Of a DNA stretch of 64,000 nt, positions 3,048-33,850 are shown in pieces. Numbering within the stretch: the stretch's first letter is position 1; each line of letters opens with the position of its first letter. Origin of the DNA: Amedibacterium intestinale (GTDB taxonomy: Bacteria; Bacillota_I; Bacilli_A; Erysipelotrichales; Erysipelotrichaceae); the NCBI RefSeq assembly GCF_010537335.1, contig NZ_AP019711.1, forward strand, positions 806,001 through 870,000, in the 5' to 3' direction. A model generated the notes under the pieces. The model saw only the letters and a list, made by a program, of their open reading frames with translations. It did not search any database and was not told the DNA's origin. The translations under genes and the position numbers were made by a program.

Positions 3048-4787
3048 TTATTCAACTCCTTCTAGTATTTTCAACAACGCTTCATATGAATTTGGTAAAT
3101 ATTTTTTGACGTATTCCAATTCTTTTCCACCGCAAACAATTGCACTCATGATGTTCGCCCACATTTCGGACGCGGTTTCATATTGTCGTACAATCATTTT
3201 TGTTTTTGCAAGATTAGACGCGTCTAATCCTAATTCTTTATAAACTTTTTGAATGTCGTTGTGGATTTTTAAACTTTTCGCAAGTGTATATTTGCGGTTG
3301 TAATATTTATCTCCATGACCCCAACGAATACGTTCACCAAACAATCCGTCTATTGCGTCTTGAACGCCCGAACTTCCGTCATGTTCCGATAACTCTTTTC
3401 TCAAATCATTTGAGAAAATGTTTTTAATATATTCTTTGTCTTTTCGAACGGCTTGCAAAAATTCATCGCTTGAACTTGTTTTCTTTTTAAACCACTCTTT
3501 CGCCCATGACCCTTTTGACTCTATGGCTTTGTTCAAACTATCAATTTCTTTAAAATTGACTTTGAATTTTGCTTTTGCGTCAAAATAATGACCATATTCG
3601 TGAGCCAGTGTCGAATATTTATGGATTTCTTCATATCTCAAACCACTGTCATATCCAAATTCAATTGAATTTTCCGATGGTAAATAAGAACCGCCATTTC
3701 TCACGAATGTTATTCTATCCACTCCATCGGCATATTTCGAATATAGTTTTTTGATGTCTGTGTTCGAATGATTGTTCAATAAATCCGTGTATTCTTTGTA
3801 ATCTCCGACACCCATTGCACCTTTTAATTTCGTCGTATTTCCGATAATGTCAAATGTTGTTTCTTTGACAATTTCTTCCACACTTTCATTATACACCTTT
3901 TTAAACGATTCGAAATTCTTTTCATTAATTTTTACAATTTCTTTCGTTTCATTGTTCATTTTGGTGACTTCGTCTTCACCCAACGCCCATCTTGCACGTT
4001 GTAGCATGACGCAACGACAATTGATGTCCTCATGCGGAACACCAAATCCCGCGGGGTACATCGCTTGTTTTCCATTCACTTCAAATGGTTCATCAATTTC
4101 CCGAATCTGTCCGTCTAATTTGACATGATTTGGTCGTGTCTTCTTGTCCATTGTGGAATCCCATTGTTTGACAATGTCCGCCCCTCGTTCCTTTGCTCCC
4201 TTTTGAGCGTCAAACGTTGCTTGTTGTTGAATTCGATGTCCTTCGGTTCTAACAATACGCAATGCCCTTCTAACGCCCATATCGGCTTTTTTAAGGACGT
4301 TTCGTGTTATGTCACTGTAAGAATACCCATTCGCAATTCCACGGCTTATTTCTGCGTTTATTTGCTTTTGAAGCGTCTTCACATGGAATCCCAATGATTC
4401 ATACAACGATTTTGACAACTTGGTGTCATTAGTCAATGCTTTGACAACTTGATTTTGGTCAATCGGGAACACCAATGGAATTCCCTGTCCTTGCAAATCA
4501 TACATTGTCCCCAAGAATCCTTCTTCATAGCATTTCTTCAAGTATTCTTGAATGTCCGTATACTGATTCGCATTCAAATTGTCCAAAATCGCTTTGATTT
4601 GCATTTTTAATGCTTTTTGATACTCGATTTGATATATCTTCGATTGCGTCAATTCGTCCGCTTGCAATATCTTAATTTTTTGGTTGATGTCGCGAATTGC
4701 TTTGTTATATGTCGCCTTTAATTTCTTGATGATGGCTTCTTCGTCTTTCAACTGTGATTGAATGACTTCTTTTTGTCTTTTATTCAA
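3048..4787 (-). CDS. MuF-like head morphogenesis protein with C-terminal zinc-peptidase (toxin-like) domain
   Basis: About 579 residues, with TTG start at 4787 placed 6 bases after GAAGGTG; a TTG at 4805 is possible. Residues 90-265 match the MuF/SPP1 gp7 family, including RTEGHRIQQQATFDA and the cysteine-ended signature GVPHEDINCRC at about residues 249-259. After a linker, the C-terminal 250 residues contain AHEYGHYFD, a HExxH zinc-binding site (His396, Glu397, His400), a WGHGDKYY segment near 490 and a Glu-rich ETASEMWA near 537 that may supply the third ligand. Phage MuF proteins with swapped C-terminal enzyme domains are described as polymorphic toxins; that this one is injected and active is inference. 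Confidence 0.8.
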   Translation of the reverse strand: MNKRQKEVIQSQLKDEEAIIKKLKATYNKAIRDINQKIKILQADELTQSKIYQIEYQKALKMQIKAILDNLNANQYTDIQEYLKKCYEEGFLGTMYDLQGQGIPLVFPIDQNQVVKALTNDTKLSKSLYESLGFHVKTLQKQINAEISRGIANGYSYSDITRNVLKKADMGVRRALRIVRTEGHRIQQQATFDAQKGAKERGADIVKQWDSTMDKKTRPNHVKLDGQIREIDEPFEVNGKQAMYPAGFGVPHEDINCRCVMLQRARWALGEDEVTKMNNETKEIVKINEKNFESFKKVYNESVEEIVKETTFDIIGNTTKLKGAMGVGDYKEYTDLLNNHSNTDIKKLYSKYADGVDRITFVRNGGSYLPSENSIEFGYDSGLRYEEIHKYSTLAHEYGHYFDAKAKFKVNFKEIDSLNKAIESKGSWAKEWFKKKTSSSDEFLQAVRKDKEYIKNIFSNDLRKELSEHDGSSGVQDAIDGLFGERIRWGHGDKYYNRKYTLAKSLKIHNDIQKVYKELGLDASNLAKTKMIVRQYETASEMWANIMSAIVCGGKELEYVKKYLPNSYEALLKILEGVE

Positions 4788-12542: not shown

Positions 12543-12693
12543 TTTTGATTTTCTTCCTTTCTTTTTGATAACATGAATATGAACATTGATATTTCTTATG
12601 GGCTTTATAAATGTAGCCCGCTTTATTTATAATCAAAAATTTTCTACCGCATACGGAACATATCTTTTCCGAATCTTTTAAGACTTCTCTCAT
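12523..12693 (-). CDS. small zinc-ribbon protein
   Basis: 56 residues, with ATG at 12693 overlapping the toxin-like gene's TGA (TGATG junction); a start at 12723 would run 30 bases into that gene. Four cysteines in CSVCGRKF and CSYSCYQK form a likely zinc ribbon, followed by a basic tail. Its translational coupling to the PemK/MazF-like gene makes it a possible partner or antitoxin, but it resembles no known antitoxin family that I can recognise. It overlaps the primase start by 20 bases. Confidence 0.6.
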   Translation of the reverse strand: MREVLKDSEKICSVCGRKFLIINKAGYIYKAHKKYQCSYSCYQKERKKIKNVRKIV

Positions 12694-13025
12694 CACACAA
12701 CACCCAAGGCATTTTTCAAACATTCGTCAACAAATTTCATTTGAAATTCACTTATTTTACATTCGATTTTAACTATATCGCTTTGTCTTATTGTGAAAAT
12801 TTGTTCGCAAATAACCATCGAATTATTGTAATCAATGACAACATGGGTCGGTTGCGACAATTTTTTTAATTTGGTCGTCAATGGAACTACCATTGCAAAT
12901 TCTGAAAATCTATTTCCAATATCGTTTGATACTACTAGGAATGGACGTCTTCCCATTTGGATATGTCCTTTACCGTTTTTATTTTCGGTTTTTAAATATA
13001 CTACTTGTCCTTTTTCTACCTTCAT
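12693..13025 (-). CDS. PemK/MazF-family protein (endoribonuclease toxin-like)
   Basis: 110 residues of the PemK/MazF fold. Seen features: N-terminal GQVVYLKTE strand, GRRPFLVVSND (the RPxLVVSN signature), VVPLTTK and the later VICEQIFTIR with a conserved Arg/Ile region. Chromosomal homologues cut mRNA and are neutralised by a MazE-like antitoxin; none is encoded upstream, where the DNA polymerase ends three bases away. In a phage replication operon it may attack host mRNA, or control phage copy or host growth. The downstream 56-residue zinc-ribbon gene is the only close partner. Confidence 0.8.
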   Translation of the reverse strand: MKVEKGQVVYLKTENKNGKGHIQMGRRPFLVVSNDIGNRFSEFAMVVPLTTKLKKLSQPTHVVIDYNNSMVICEQIFTIRQSDIVKIECKISEFQMKFVDECLKNALGVV

Positions 13026-13028
13026 TTA

Positions 13029-14795
13029 TTACATCACCCCAAAATCTTTCAATCTTTGATTTGCTAAATCTATATACCATTGCTTGTCCAGTTTCGACGG
13101 GCACTTCACGCCATTCACTTCATCATTAAATAAAAATGCGTGTTCGGGTGTTCCTTCCAATTTTGCAATTGCTTTTGTTTCCGCGTGAACCTTTGCCAAT
13201 CCACCATCGCGCTTGTCTTTTGAAGCAAAACAACGAATACATTTTTCATTCAATTCAACCGTGTTGCTATATGTCATAAAGACTTTTTTTCCTTTGCTTT
13301 CGAAACGCGTTCCGTATAGCAATTTTGAATATTTACTACTTATTTTTTTGACCTGTTGGAACTCTTTCAGTTCATCACATTCAAGAATCGTTTTTTCAAC
13401 TGGAATCCCTTTGACCATGAAATCGACCATTGCTTTATTTACAATCGGCAAATCATAATCAAGATTGTTCAGCTTCTTCACGTATGCGCCTTTTGATTTC
13501 CAACGTGGCTTTCCTTTTTTGTCATAAAGTTCACCGTCCGGAACAATGACATAATTATTAACGTCCTTTTGATAAACTCGACGATATTCATCGAATTCAA
13601 GTGTCAATCCCGTTCTTTGTTCCCATTCATAAGCGATGTCATCAATCAAACTGTATTGTTCATCAGCTTCCTTGTCGTTTTTAGCATTTAATTTGACAAG
13701 AATTCCGTCCGTATTTGATTGAATGATTTTACAATGCGGTTCTAACTTTTCTATCAAATCTAATAACAACAATTGACCGTGAACACAAACATTGTTTGCC
13801 TGTCTTGGGTCGTACAATGGATTTGACTTCGCTTTCATCGCCCCATACGTTCCATTTATGACGATTTTCAACGGGGCTTGAAGTGGATTTCCTTCATGCT
13901 TATAATTCAATCGCAAATCGACAATATTGTTGAATTTTTGAGGATTGCACGACCTAGAATGCAAGTTGTATCGAATCATCAAGTTTGGATATAGCGACGC
14001 AACGTCCATCATCAAGAAATATCCTTCGTCACAATATTGTTCCAACGCCCCATGGACACCACCCCAACCGAATTGATGGGGAACGCCCGCAATATCACAA
14101 GACAACTTGTGTTTTTCTGATTTCTCATTGCTTGGGTCGATTCTATATTTTCGATTGTTTTTATCTTTGTACCAGTCAACAACGAAATTGTATTTATTGA
14201 TTCGCATTATATCGGGAAAACAAATGTCAAATTCGTCGTTATACGTTCTTTTGCTTGCGTCCAAAATCTGCGCCGACAATTGAACTTTCGTTTTGTTTAT
14301 GTTCATCAACGGCATGTTGAACATTTTCAGCAATCCCATTTGTGCTTCAAAATCGTCTTTTCGTTCCAAGAACACTTCAATTGTTTGTTCAACATCATGA
14401 CGACAATATTTGATTGTTTCGGCAATCTCCGACGCCGTCAATTTCCTGTCAATATCAAATGGAACGCTTGATTCCTTGATGTCGTTTCCCATGAACCCTT
14501 CGAATCGTTTCAACCCGCCGTCATTCGCTTGCATGACATCGTAATTGTATAAAGGGAACTTTCTCAAAAGGCTTGAGAACTCCCAACCCACACGATGTTT
14601 GACGATTATCCAATCGTTGATTCGCTTTGGGTTAAATCCCGCTAAAATGCCTTTTAAAATGTATTGGTCATAGTGTCGACTATTGAAGCCGACCCATATG
14701 TCTTGTTTGTGTTCGCAATATAATTGTTCAAGACGCTTTGTGTCATTTACGATGACATGTTCTTTTTGATTCACAACGTCAATCGCAACGACCAA
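13029..14795 (-). CDS. phage family-B DNA polymerase (start disturbed)
   Basis: Translation from the only usable in-frame start codon, TTG at 14795, gives 588 residues. Seen motifs: exonuclease II GFNSRHYDQY (36-45), exonuclease III YCRHD (130-134), polymerase motif A DVASLYP (264-270), motif B around Lys310 with NGTYG (314-318), and motif C as NTDG (361-364), where the usual first Asp is Asn. The frame stays open to 14834 and the codons before the TTG read STIDFEVFAYDW, which supply the missing exonuclease I DxE motif. Thus the real N-terminus lies upstream, but the well-placed ATG at 14844 is in another frame. It copies phage DNA; proofreading is in doubt if TTG is used. Confidence 0.82.
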   Translation of the reverse strand: MVVAIDVVNQKEHVIVNDTKRLEQLYCEHKQDIWVGFNSRHYDQYILKGILAGFNPKRINDWIIVKHRVGWEFSSLLRKFPLYNYDVMQANDGGLKRFEGFMGNDIKESSVPFDIDRKLTASEIAETIKYCRHDVEQTIEVFLERKDDFEAQMGLLKMFNMPLMNINKTKVQLSAQILDASKRTYNDEFDICFPDIMRINKYNFVVDWYKDKNNRKYRIDPSNEKSEKHKLSCDIAGVPHQFGWGGVHGALEQYCDEGYFLMMDVASLYPNLMIRYNLHSRSCNPQKFNNIVDLRLNYKHEGNPLQAPLKIVINGTYGAMKAKSNPLYDPRQANNVCVHGQLLLLDLIEKLEPHCKIIQSNTDGILVKLNAKNDKEADEQYSLIDDIAYEWEQRTGLTLEFDEYRRVYQKDVNNYVIVPDGELYDKKGKPRWKSKGAYVKKLNNLDYDLPIVNKAMVDFMVKGIPVEKTILECDELKEFQQVKKISSKYSKLLYGTRFESKGKKVFMTYSNTVELNEKCIRCFASKDKRDGGLAKVHAETKAIAKLEGTPEHAFLFNDEVNGVKCPSKLDKQWYIDLANQRLKDFGVM

Positions 14796-14813
14796 CCAAT
14801 CATAAGCAAAAAC

Positions 14814-14857
14814 TTCGAAGTCAATCGTAGAATATCATTGACATTCCCGAACCACCT
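14814..14857 (-). other. polymerase translation-start region with apparent frameshift
   Basis: AGGTGG (14857-14852) lies seven bases before ATG 14844, but this frame ends at a TGA seven codons later. Skipping one base after the second ATG (14838) would enter the polymerase frame just before the DFE exonuclease I motif. The polymerase frame itself is limited upstream by the TGA stop of the HNH gene at 14835-14837. Confidence 0.7.
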
Positions 14858-15386
14858 TCTTTCGCGGTGACACTTGAATCAAATATCCTTGATATTCAAA
14901 AACTTCACCATTTTTTCTAATTCGATTTTGAAGCCACCCTTTTTTGAATCCAAAGAATGACGCACAATTTTTCATCGAATCAAATTCGTGTTTTATTCCA
15001 TCTTTTTCGATGACAACTTTTCTTCTTATTTTGCATTGATTTTCTACCAATCCAATTTTTACGGCGTGTTTCAAATTGTCGCTATACGAACACCATTCTA
15101 AATTCTCAACACAATTATTTTGCTTGTTCCCGTCAATGTGATTGACACAAGGATAATTGTTTGGATTCGGAATAAATGTTTCCGCAACTAATCGGTGAAT
15201 CATTACATTTTTATTGATTCCATTTTTTCGCAAACAAACAAATTTGTACCCGTTATGATATTGTCCGCCTTTTAATTTTTTACCACGGAAAAATCTTCCA
15301 TCTTTTAAATAACGGTTTTCACTGTAAACATTCCCGCGGTCGGTAATCGCATATAAACCGACATAATCTTTGACACTAGAAATCAT
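14835..15386 (-). CDS. HNH homing endonuclease (NUMOD4/HNH_3 type)
   Basis: 183 residues with a good ribosome site (AAAGGAA). The N-terminal NUMOD4-like strand region has GLYAITDRGNVYS; the HNH core is IHRLVAETFIPNP followed by CVNHIDGNKQNNCVENLEW (about residues 62-100). The C-terminal region (HEFDSMKNCASFFGFKKGW and on) looks like a NUMOD1 DNA-binding repeat. Its last codons overlap the ribosome site and start of the DNA polymerase gene, and both frames meet at the same TGA. This is typical of a free-standing homing endonuclease that has inserted beside a conserved replication gene. Confidence 0.85.
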   Translation of the reverse strand: MISSVKDYVGLYAITDRGNVYSENRYLKDGRFFRGKKLKGGQYHNGYKFVCLRKNGINKNVMIHRLVAETFIPNPNNYPCVNHIDGNKQNNCVENLEWCSYSDNLKHAVKIGLVENQCKIRRKVVIEKDGIKHEFDSMKNCASFFGFKKGWLQNRIRKNGEVFEYQGYLIQVSPRKKVVRECQ

Positions 15387-15412: not shown

Positions 15413-15445
15413 AAAGCCACCGCGATGTCATTTCACGATGGCTTT
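15413..15445 (-). terminator. hairpin between the DUF669 and HNH genes
   Basis: Outer stem AAAGCCA / TGGCTTT with imperfect inner pairs, followed on the minus strand by ATTTGTT. It may weaken transcription from the DUF669 gene into the HNH gene. The T-tract is poor, so read-through to the polymerase is likely. Confidence 0.4.
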
Positions 15446-15454
15446 CCCATTTAA

Positions 15455-15463
15455 AATGGCATT
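15455..15463. promoter_or_regulatory. operator-like AATGGCATT box downstream of the DUF669 gene
   Basis: The 9-bp sequence AATGGCATT, inside CCATTTTAAATGG read on the minus strand, matches the boxes around the phage regulator gene near 20.5 and 20.8 kb. It abuts the stop codon of the DUF669 gene. It could bind the same regulator and control the HNH-polymerase part of the operon. Confidence 0.4.
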
Positions 15464-15919
15464 TTAGATGTCAAAAATTTCGTTGATTTTGAATGTATTA
15501 TATCCTTTTTTGTTTTGGTCATAAGCCAATAAATATTCACATTTACCGTCGATTTCTTCCGCAATGTCCATAATTAAATCGTTATAATGTGCATAATTAC
15601 CATCAAATTCAACATTCAATTCCGTTCCAAGTGATTTCAAGAATTCATTTACAATGTGAATTTGGAATCCCTGTAAAATTACTTGGTTCATGAATATGAT
15701 TGAATCCTTGAATTCACCTTCCAAAACCTTGAACCAACATGTGAACATTGGGTCACCTTTTTTTGATTCCTTCAATTCCATTTTGTCAATTTTGACTTCA
15801 TATTCTCCAAGTGGAACTTCTTTATATTCAAAATTCCCGCCGTTTTCTTCAACTTCCTTAACGTCCTTTGCTAATGCTTCCCCGTCAACTGCTTTGTTCC
15901 ATTTATCAAAAATACTCAT
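15464..15919 (-). CDS. DUF669 phage replication/recombination protein
   Basis: 151 residues. The DUF669 pattern is visible: MSIFDKWNKAVDGEAL, then the beta-structured VPLGEYEVKIDKMELKESKK and later FMNQVIL. The family is found next to Sak4/Cas4-like recombination genes and DNA polymerases in phages and is thought to be a single-strand DNA-binding or accessory protein; this role comes from family context. Its start overlaps the upstream gene's stop in a TAATG junction. Confidence 0.78.
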   Translation of the reverse strand: MSIFDKWNKAVDGEALAKDVKEVEENGGNFEYKEVPLGEYEVKIDKMELKESKKGDPMFTCWFKVLEGEFKDSIIFMNQVILQGFQIHIVNEFLKSLGTELNVEFDGNYAHYNDLIMDIAEEIDGKCEYLLAYDQNKKGYNTFKINEIFDI

Positions 15920-16247: not shown

Positions 16248-17867
16248 TCAGTCCCTTGCCTTTCTTGTTCTTCTGCGTGGTCTTTCTTCCACTTGTCTTT
16301 CTTCTTCAACTGGTGTTTCTTCAACCTTTTGTTCTTCCTCAACTGGTTCTTCTTCAACCTTATGTTCTCGACGTGGTCTTTCCTGTTTCGGTTCTTCTTC
16401 CTTCTTTGGCGTTCCTTTTGACGCAATTTCATATACGTCCATTAGTGCTTCCCAACTTAAAGGAATCTTTGTTTCTGTCAATCCTTTCAAACGACCGCCA
16501 CCAAACACGAATTCATTTGATTTGAAGTTCAACGTTCTTGTTCCATCATCTTCAACGACCGCACGCGCCACGATGTCGACCATTCCCGCGACTTTGTTTG
16601 CGATTGATTCTTGAATGTTCGGCGCAATCTTTGTTATTGTCTGTCCATTCTTTTTCTTGATTTCATTTTGAATTTCGTGCGATACGACAACGATATTTTC
16701 ATAATCAAGGTTGAAAAGTCGACGTAATGTTGAAAGATATTCAGTCTTGATGATGTCCCAACCTTTACCATATCCCGAATCACTTTCGTGTTCGATTCCC
16801 ATTTGGTCATATTTGTATAGACGACACATTTCACGAGTGTCTTCAAGTAAATCAACGATGATTGTCTTGAATTCGTTTTTATTCTTTTCGAGTTCTTCAA
16901 TCGTTTCTTTCAACACTTCCCATGCGAATTTACGACGTGTGACACGTCCTTCTACTGTCACGATGTCCTTGATTGCGATGTATGGCATTGTTACAAACTG
17001 AATGTTTCCATCACTGTTCAAGTTTAATGGATTCGGCGCGTCGTCCAACATCGTTGTTTTTCCAGTGAAGGCGTCACCATAAATCCAAATTTTTCTTTTT
17101 GTTGCTTTTCCGATTTCACGGCGTTCCGTACTAGGTAAAATCATGTATTCTTCTCCTTTCAAGCAATACTCTTTATACTCACACCAATCGCACAAACGAC
17201 TTTCATTTTTTTCAAACTTTGTCGTTTCTTCGATTGTTTGAATATCACAATTAAATTGTTCGACTTTCTTTTCGTCATATTCGACTTTGACGATTTTCGG
17301 TTCAAGTCCGTCAAGCGTATTTTCAAGTCGTTTTCTAAACTGATATAAATCCTCGCTTTTTTTCTGTTTTATAAACGTTTTTGGAATCATGACATAATAT
17401 AAGCCATTGACCTTTTTCCCCGTCATACGCTCGAAATAATAGGCGTATAAGTGAAGTTGTGGCGATTCCAAATAGTGTTCTAGGTTATTCGAATATTTGA
17501 AGTCATAAATGTTGAATGTCCCGTCTTCCAATTCTTCCAATCCGTCAATGAATCCGTGAAAATCTTCGTGATTGATTTCAAATTCATAAACTAAATTTTT
17601 AGGAACAATTTTTTTGACTTTCGGAATCAAATTCGACAATTTTATTGCTTCATTGATTTGTAAATCTGTAATTACATTAAACGAATCATAGTATTCTTTG
17701 ATAGCTTCTTCGACGGTTGTTTCGATTCCCTTGTGCATTGCTGAACCGATAATCAATGGATTCGACGCGTCATCGCTTGGAATGGTCTTCATTTCTGCAA
17801 TATATCGCAATTCAAATTTGAACGGGCATGAATTGAAACACTCGACCCGACTATGTGACCACTTCAT
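16248..17867 (-). CDS. fusion of a Cas4/RecB-like nuclease and a Sak4-like ATPase
   Basis: 539 residues from ATG 17867, eight bases after GGAG. The N-terminal half (residues 1-235) is a PD-(D/E)XK exonuclease: GSAMHKGIE, then GFIDGLEEL and IYDFKYSN (the catalytic Asp and Lys), QLHLYAYYF (Gln motif), and cysteines in CDWCEYKEYC that fit a Cas4-type iron-sulfur cluster. Met242 starts the second part: KATKRKIWIYGDAFTGKTT is a Walker A region and FKTIIVDLLED a Walker B, as in phage Sak4 recombinases. A C-terminal Glu/Arg-rich tail contains repeated VEExPVEEE units. The ATPase part has its own internal ribosome site, so it may also be made alone. Confidence 0.82.
   Translation of the reverse strand: MKWSHSRVECFNSCPFKFELRYIAEMKTIPSDDASNPLIIGSAMHKGIETTVEEAIKEYYDSFNVITDLQINEAIKLSNLIPKVKKIVPKNLVYEFEINHEDFHGFIDGLEELEDGTFNIYDFKYSNNLEHYLESPQLHLYAYYFERMTGKKVNGLYYVMIPKTFIKQKKSEDLYQFRKRLENTLDGLEPKIVKVEYDEKKVEQFNCDIQTIEETTKFEKNESRLCDWCEYKEYCLKGEEYMILPSTERREIGKATKRKIWIYGDAFTGKTTMLDDAPNPLNLNSDGNIQFVTMPYIAIKDIVTVEGRVTRRKFAWEVLKETIEELEKNKNEFKTIIVDLLEDTREMCRLYKYDQMGIEHESDSGYGKGWDIIKTEYLSTLRRLFNLDYENIVVVSHEIQNEIKKKNGQTITKIAPNIQESIANKVAGMVDIVARAVVEDDGTRTLNFKSNEFVFGGGRLKGLTETKIPLSWEALMDVYEIASKGTPKKEEEPKQERPRREHKVEEEPVEEEQKVEETPVEEERQVEERPRRRTRKARD
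17142..17159 (-). promoter_or_regulatory. internal ribosome site and start inside the nuclease-ATPase fusion
   Basis: AAAGGAG (17159-17153), eight bases, then ATG at 17144, in frame with the fusion. The ATG starts MILPSTERREIGKATKR, which looks like the normal N-terminus of a stand-alone Sak4-type ATPase. This suggests that a former gene boundary was lost by removal of a stop codon while the second start was retained. Confidence 0.65.
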
Positions 17868-18304
17868 TCGACTTTCTCCAAATCTTTCAACATACAATAC
17901 CAACCGTGACCATTTTCACATTTTCCACCCGAATCGTGAAGATATGGATTGTATTCGTCAAAATCAACACAAATGTCATTGCCATTAAAACCAATCACCG
18001 TTCCGATTCCAAAATCCTTGTGACGAATCGTGTCATATAGTTCAACTTTTGCTTTCGGCGGTTCATCGGGAATCCTTACTTCTTCAAATTCAACGTCAAT
18101 TGGTTCGACCAATTCAAACATGCTAGGCGACCAAAAGAATGGCGCTTCATTTAATCTATAATTACCTCTTTTGTTAATGCTTTTTATTGTCAAAACTTCT
18201 CCTTTGAAACATTCCATTTCTTCCAAAAAACTTATTTCTTCATACCTTTCGCGTACAACCAAATCGTCTTTTAATTTGACTTTATCGCCGATTTTGAATT
18301 TCAT
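17864..18304 (-). CDS. phage protein with two SH3/KOW-like beta segments
   Basis: 146 residues. Residues 1-60 begin MKFKIGDKVKLKDD and contain VLTIKSI, like a small beta-barrel. Residues 88-146 repeat the theme with DTIRHKDFGIGTVIGFNG and a His/Cys-rich GGKCENGHGWYC loop. Such barrels often bind nucleic acid or protein partners. It overlaps the fusion gene by four bases and the nuclease gene by four. No named family is certain. Confidence 0.55.
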   Translation of the reverse strand: MKFKIGDKVKLKDDLVVRERYEEISFLEEMECFKGEVLTIKSINKRGNYRLNEAPFFWSPSMFELVEPIDVEFEEVRIPDEPPKAKVELYDTIRHKDFGIGTVIGFNGNDICVDFDEYNPYLHDSGGKCENGHGWYCMLKDLEKVE

Positions 18305-33630: not shown

Positions 33631-33850
33631 AAAAAAAGCGCCCTTTTCCAAGGACGCTGTCATCGCGCGGTACCACCTTAGTTTTTCATAAAACGAAACA
33701 CTCTGTCCATTAACGCAGGAATTACGGCTTTACTTTTCATAAAGCAGCTCCAAGGTGTATTCCATAAACTTGCTCTACAGCTTTTCACCAGCCAGCTGTC
33801 TCTCTTTGCAGCAAAATTTTATGTACTCTGTCTTATCATCGCTGATTTGT
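33631..33850 (-). promoter_or_regulatory. T-box leader (tyrosine) of tyrS
   Basis: A 220-base leader. The T-box/antiterminator sequence TGGTACCGCG is at 33675-33666 and is followed by the terminator AGCGTCC...GGGCGCT plus seven T (to 33631). Stem I has AGAGAG and a specifier-like GAATACACC at about 33762-33754 in which TAC is the tyrosine codon, as expected for tyrS. Uncharged tRNA-Tyr would stabilise the antiterminator. Confidence 0.9.

Follow-up and report, generated by a model that had tools for sequence, protein, structure and literature searches.

The window analysed here is a stretch of 64,000 nucleotides from Amedibacterium intestinale, in which three neighbouring genes lie on the minus strand: a DUF669 gene (15464-15919), a gene for a free-standing HNH homing endonuclease of 183 amino acids (14835-15386) and the main body of a B-family DNA polymerase gene, with exonuclease and polymerase motifs (13029-14822). 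The polymerase was assigned by PHROG 1252 (E=4e-172) and by an AlphaFold model, which matches B-family polymerases in Foldseek with a probability of 1.00; its Pfam DNA_pol_B match lies only at the cut-off (22.9 of 23 bits). The endonuclease, present in a single copy in the genome, matches PHROG 59 (HNH endonuclease) and contains an HNH nuclease motif together with DNA-binding modules (NUMOD4, PF07463, and HNH_3, PF13392). Its C-terminal part (14859-15050, minus strand; alignment A5) is presumed to be the target-recognition domain, and the matches of this part in viral contigs are found only beside polymerases that carry the insertion described below.

Other features of the window were also observed. 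In the related locus L063, a DNA methyltransferase gene is located between the DUF669 and polymerase genes; its 3' end is matched by the short stretch AATGCCATTTTAAATGGGAAAG at 15428-15460 of the window, apparently all that is left of the gene there. Directly downstream of the polymerase there is a MazF/PemK-like gene (12693-13025), and a similar gene follows the polymerase of L063. A gene at 16248-17903 (PHROG 8097 and 124) encodes a fusion in which an exonuclease part similar to DUF2800/Cas4 is joined to a Sak4-like ATPase part, and a T-box leader (Rfam RF00230) is present on the minus strand at 33647-33848.

The polymerase frame opens after the TGA of the endonuclease gene (14837-14835), which bounds it as the original prediction had stated, and reads Y S T I D F E V F. 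All the coordinates given in that prediction were correct, those of the proofreading motif included: the DFE codons of exonuclease I (14822-14814) precede the first usable start of this frame, TTG 14795, and by direct reading there is no ATG, GTG or TTG between the endonuclease stop and this codon. The remainder of the window polymerase is open over 601 codons. An ATG at 14844, seven bases past a Shine-Dalgarno-like AGGTGG (14857-14852, minus strand), is indeed in another frame; it opens a short upstream frame, ATG TCA ATG ATA TTC TAC GAT TGA (14821-14844, minus strand), which reads M S M I F Y D and ends at TGA 14823-14821. This short frame corresponds to the native N-terminus of the polymerase, since almost all homologues start with M[LI]FYDFEVF, four codons ahead of the catalytic aspartate.

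Homologues were gathered from viral contigs, genomes and phage records. When the window was compared with homologues free of the insertion, much as had been suggested with the original prediction, the anomaly proved to be a 4-nt insertion: relative to 158 insertion-free homologues, the window has four extra nucleotides within the DFE codons, UUC UAC GAU|U|GAC UUC GAA. Being a near-tandem duplication, the insertion can be positioned in more than one way, within a few bases; we placed it as GATT (14823-14826, minus strand). It nearly duplicates the Asp codon, so that an in-frame UGA (14821-14823) directly follows the first copy and the second Asp codon lies 4 nt downstream. The presumed take-off codon, GAT (14826-14824), and the T that would be skipped (14823) are both inside the insertion, the UGA adjoins the take-off codon, and the presumed landing codon, GAC (14820-14822), is the Asp codon of the DFE motif. 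In L063, which is the nearest relative (72% identical in the alignment used for the tree), there is no endonuclease at this place and the sequence reads uninterrupted ATG ATT TTT TAT GAC TTT GAG. Skipping one base after the second ATG (14838), as had been proposed, does restore the frame but leaves an extra residue (FYDDFEVF), whereas a skip of four bases gives the native FYDFEVF.

An insertion of this kind is present in 10 of 169 unique polymerases, at six separate places in the tree. In Clostridium pascui (L087), a related endonuclease (56% identity) occupies the same place and the 4-nt insertion is found two codons further on, UUU GAG U GAA GUA. A protein-based scan revealed L175, with the Asp form; a pattern scan added L252, L257, L254, L258, L259, L261, L263 and L267, and a second one added the Glu form in L328. 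The six changes on the tree of 169 polymerases comprise four of the Asp form (L261, L267, L252 and L257 together; the window; L175; L254 and L258 together) and two of the Glu form (L087 and L328), and each lineage has insertion-free sisters or relatives. This distribution points to repeated origin or horizontal spread of the insertion. In each of the ten unique loci the U stands between synonymous codons (eight times GAY-U-GAY, twice GAG-U-GAA), the stop directly 3' of the take-off codon is always UGA, in most of them in a UGAC context, and joining the two codons around the U gives the native N-terminus in 10 cases out of 10.

The first pattern scan presupposed matched codons, and it was checked by scans in which the take-off codon, or nearly all the upstream sequence, was left open. 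These open scans, which are blind to insertions without UGA, yielded no polymerase with a non-synonymous pair; protein-based scans, which are able to see insertions without UGA, found none at the polymerase site. Among the possible 4-nt tandem duplications within the first nine codons of the 158 insertion-free relatives, only 13% would create a stop immediately 3' of a codon whose synonym follows at a distance of 4 nt. Three loci, the window, L087 and L175, came to light without any pattern search, and all of them show the stop and the matched codons, for which the chance is 0.13 cubed, about 0.002. In addition, in two clades the matched pair is kept while its first codon drifts between GAT and GAC. 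Pattern scans of 395 host genomes for the Asp form and of 392 for the Glu form (overlapping sets) gave no case besides the window. Frame breaks elsewhere in related genes (L051, L055, L086, L190, L344) do not have the matched-codon pattern and look like small slips or decay.

The endonuclease gene follows the pattern of a free-standing homing endonuclease: it lies beside its presumed target, and L063, which lacks the gene, has an empty, uninterrupted site. A group I or II intron around the gene was considered and ruled out, there being no Rfam intron match in the window. A NUMOD4/HNH endonuclease with the specific C-terminal domain, or a remnant bearing it, stands directly upstream of five of the ten insertion-bearing polymerases (four of the six lineages) and of none of 159 insertion-free ones; the association has a Fisher p of 2e-7 when counted by rows, phylogenetically independent pairs being too few for significance. 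When 2.9 million viral contigs were scanned with the C-terminal domain, four contigs were obtained, and all four carry the insertion. L254, L258 and L259 keep only a remnant of 49-61 amino acids bearing this domain, a state that would be expected late in the homing cycle. Half of the insertion-bearing rows have no adjacent endonuclease: L252, L257, L261 and L175 keep the site without one, and in L328 a more distant member of the family is found elsewhere, before a helicase gene. A search for the endonuclease domain in 392 genomes returned nothing convincing besides the window. At L039 (3501-3990), a decayed, distant relative of the endonuclease occupies the same place before an insertion-free polymerase (MLIYDFEVF), a partial exception to the link. 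It had been suggested that a one-base insertion arose when the homing endonuclease moved in. The link with the endonuclease is supported by these data, but the insertion measures 4 nt instead of one and lies in the presumed target, and it does not look like the by-product of a sloppy move.

We then considered selection on the genes that carry the insertion. L252 and L267, both with the insertion, differ at 70% of synonymous and 7% of non-synonymous sites, with a dN/dS of 0.033 (0.025 for the exonuclease part); this is the best-measured pair, as in the other insertion-bearing pairs synonymous sites are saturated (78-90% differ) and 14-16% of non-synonymous sites differ. Such strong purifying selection argues that the insertion-bearing polymerases are expressed. 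Over the five codons before the UGA, all four substitutions seen in two insertion-bearing clades are synonymous in that frame (p 0.001-0.013, depending on the transition bias), and a difference in length between L252 and L261 amounts to exactly one codon; the upstream codons therefore behave as part of the translated protein. Selection acting both before and after the UGA lends indirect support to a product read from the two frames. Two of the four substitutions (GAT/GAC) would change a residue in the alternative frame read from an overlapping ATG. Taken together, the site is, as judged by comparison of sequences, a recurrent, selected and endonuclease-linked candidate recoding site.

We propose that the endonuclease and the insertion form a homing cassette, in which the insertion would destroy the cut site and a short, stop-triggered ribosome hop (Asp to Asp or Glu to Glu) would restore the native protein; we give this reading a probability of roughly 60%. 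The C-terminal domain would direct the HNH endonuclease to the conserved start of phage PolB genes (the FYDFEVF codons at their 5' end), and the endonuclease gene would lie just upstream of this target, which is probably the invariant DFE region. In its own copy of the target, the 4-nt insertion would block cutting; it also shifts the frame and creates a UGA directly after the Asp codon. A ribosome starting at the native ATG would make MSMIFYD and pause at the UGA; peptidyl-tRNA-Asp would then let go of GAU, move by 4 nt and re-pair with GAC, and translation would resume at UUC GAA to give the native polymerase, including its proofreading motif. Only tRNA-Asp(GUC) was found for Asp among the host tRNA genes, so one tRNA reads both GAU and GAC. 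Such a 4-nt hop is the most likely explanation of the matched codons and of the stop, and would yield the native protein. Against the proposal it counts that a tandem duplication alone yields matched codons, and that an overlapping in-frame ATG offers a start where the Tyr codon is TAT (L252, L257, L261, L267, L254 and L258). The rows without an adjacent endonuclease, the exception at L039 and the small number of independent pairs also weigh against it, as does the result for an RNA stimulator given next.

With regard to an RNA stimulator, we found neither conserved structure nor covariation at the hop site. The junction RNAs of the window and of L087 fold better than shuffled sequences, and the others do not. 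In the window (14760-14860) the z score is -2.5 relative to shuffles, with ACGAUUGAC pairing with the DWLVV codons; all nine base pairs are also possible in L175, the other locus of the TAC type, with fewer elsewhere and without covariation. A conserved stem-loop seems unlikely, as the 9-bp pairing shared by the window and L175 lacks covariation.

The main rival to the hop would be a programmed +1 frameshift at the UGA, similar to that of prfB, in which one base is skipped and GAC UUC GAA is read. The product would be longer by one residue (FYDDFEVF in the Asp form and FYDFEEVF in the Glu form), and the endonuclease link would be unchanged. A shift of +1 alone restores the frame after a 4-nt insertion, and the stop is always UGA, usually in the UGAC context of prfB. 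However, re-pairing of the P-site tRNA from GAU to AUU, or from GAG to AGU, would be poor, the P-site codon (GAU/GAC or GAG) is not slippery and there is no purine-rich Shine-Dalgarno-like stimulator just upstream. In addition, a +1 shift leaves two things unaccounted for, the constant synonymy of the second codon with the first and the 7-nt helicase case presented below, although a tandem duplication could account for them. The original prediction had listed +1 frameshifting among its readings. Its idea of programmed recoding is broadly supported, but the synonymous codons on either side of the UGA are easier to reconcile with a 4-nt hop than with a +1 slip; we consider the +1 shift unlikely. 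Still less probable is termination at the UGA followed by reinitiation at an in-frame start that overlaps it, which with a TAT codon for Tyr would give M[I/T]DFEVF. TATGAYTGAC, with an in-frame ATG overlapping the stop, is present in the six loci of the TAT type cited above. In the window and L175, by contrast, the codon is TAC and no ATG, GTG or TTG is available there; TAT outnumbers TAC by 95 to 24 among the insertion-free relatives, so that its presence elsewhere needs no explanation. Moreover, a restart in the Glu form would lose the catalytic Asp (MILSEVF, MTLSEVF), and the GAT/GAC changes are silent in the upstream frame while changing residues in the restart frame. A start at TTG 14795, giving a polymerase without exonuclease I, had also been envisaged. 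This codon is not conserved (it is TTA in L175), and the exonuclease part is under purifying selection in other insertion-bearing polymerases, which argues against such a start. Similarly, read-through of the endonuclease TGA into an HNH-polymerase fusion does not agree with L087, where the HNH gene ends in TAA before the ATG of the polymerase, nor with the several insertion-bearing loci that lack the gene.

It might also be that the phage regulates itself, decoding of the UGA tuning the output of polymerase, and that the endonuclease is an incidental neighbour. The four loci that keep the site without an adjacent endonuclease would fit this, yet in viral contigs the specific domain occurs only beside genes with the insertion, and L254 and L258 have been left with no more than a remnant of it, as would be expected when a homing cycle ends; self-regulation is highly improbable. 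We give slightly less credit again to a broken gene or a sequencing error in the window, whose polymerase would then be dead or its sequence wrong. The window alone could be read in this way, and frame breaks of 1-2 nt do exist elsewhere in related genes. An assembly error is contradicted by independent phages with the same arrangement; isolate genomes and metagenome contigs alike carry it, the insertion-bearing clades are under purifying selection, and the rest of the window polymerase is open, as noted above. As an explanation of the whole group, error or decay is already refuted by these comparisons.

A second gene provides leads, not proof, for similar events. In the SNF2-type helicase of L382 (about 3380-3410), a 7-nt insertion interrupts the Walker A motif, GAU AUG GGU UAAC GGC UUA GGU AAA. 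The stop is directly after GGU, the synonymous GGC is a possible landing codon, and a hop would give the native DMGLGKT; no endonuclease is adjacent. In L328, an endonuclease of the same family (211-816) stands directly before the helicase gene, in which the Walker A codons (about 880-900) contain 9 extra nt and an in-frame TGA, ATG TGA AAA CTG GGA; here the landing codon matches at only two of three positions. We suggest tentatively, and with somewhat more doubt than for the polymerase cassette, that short stop-triggered hops (4 nt in the polymerase, and 7 or perhaps 9 nt in a helicase gene of related phages) may be used repeatedly by phage homing endonucleases to shield their own target where it lies within an essential invariant motif.

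To our knowledge, T4 gene 60 stands nearly alone among phage and bacterial bypass sites. The polymerase sites represent a candidate family distributed in several phage lineages, with natural insertion-free controls, Asp and Glu versions and a linked endonuclease. They make two questions directly testable: whether short hops are used naturally, and whether recoding sites are spread by homing endonucleases. If our proposal is true, micro-bypass would be a natural class and not an oddity of T4, the insertion blocking cutting and the ribosome erasing the insertion from the protein. Such polymerases are also a warning for annotation, which will either drop their proofreading motif or label them pseudogenes.

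Shorter counterparts of bypass with matched codons have long been presumed, and according to a review no natural in-frame stop hopping is known (PMC5009743). Our literature search, whose coverage left out most subscription journals, found no paper describing the polymerase insertion. Like the +1 frameshift site of prfB (release factor 2), the polymerase site has a UGA in the A site, usually followed by C, and +1 can restore its frame; unlike prfB, it has neither a slippery P-site codon nor an internal Shine-Dalgarno sequence, and its matched codons speak for a hop of 4 nt. Synthetic stop-hops in E. coli use matched codons that flank a stop (PMC5009743); in both situations peptidyl-tRNA would leave its codon and re-pair with a synonymous one past the stop, but the polymerase site is a natural candidate, with a landing codon that shares bases with the stop and with a change of frame. 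The byps of yeast mitochondria (Magnusiomyces) are short insertions that are translationally removed and have a suspected mobile origin (PMC5009743). The same two features are proposed here, removal being a candidate, in a bacterial virus, for 4 nt and with a linked HNH gene. The endonuclease itself resembles the free-standing HNH homing endonucleases of T4-like phages (MobE and others; PMC2988022), having an HNH catalytic part and a distinct C-terminal part and lying beside an essential replication gene; it differs in that its presumed target immediately adjoins the gene, with a 4-nt insertion as the proposed protection in place of an intron or diverged sequence.

By analogy, the closest precedent appears to be T4 gene 60 with MobA, in which 50 nt are bypassed during translation, the HNH endonuclease gene mobA lies 5', a stop is next to the take-off codon, the landing codon is matched and the insert has been proposed to protect against cleavage (PMC5009743, PMC3014915, PMC2988022). 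As in that system, the HNH gene is 5' of the interrupted gene, the insertion is near the 5' end of a replication gene, the stop is directly 3' of the take-off codon, the landing codon is read by the same tRNA and the insertion is proposed as protection from cleavage. The displacement would be 4 nt in place of 50 and the gene encodes PolB in place of topoisomerase; no stem-loop or nascent-peptide signal was recognised at the polymerase site, and the hop is a candidate known from sequence. Unlike T4 gene 60, the polymerase site is found at six separate points of a tree that spans diverse phages, in both Asp and Glu versions.
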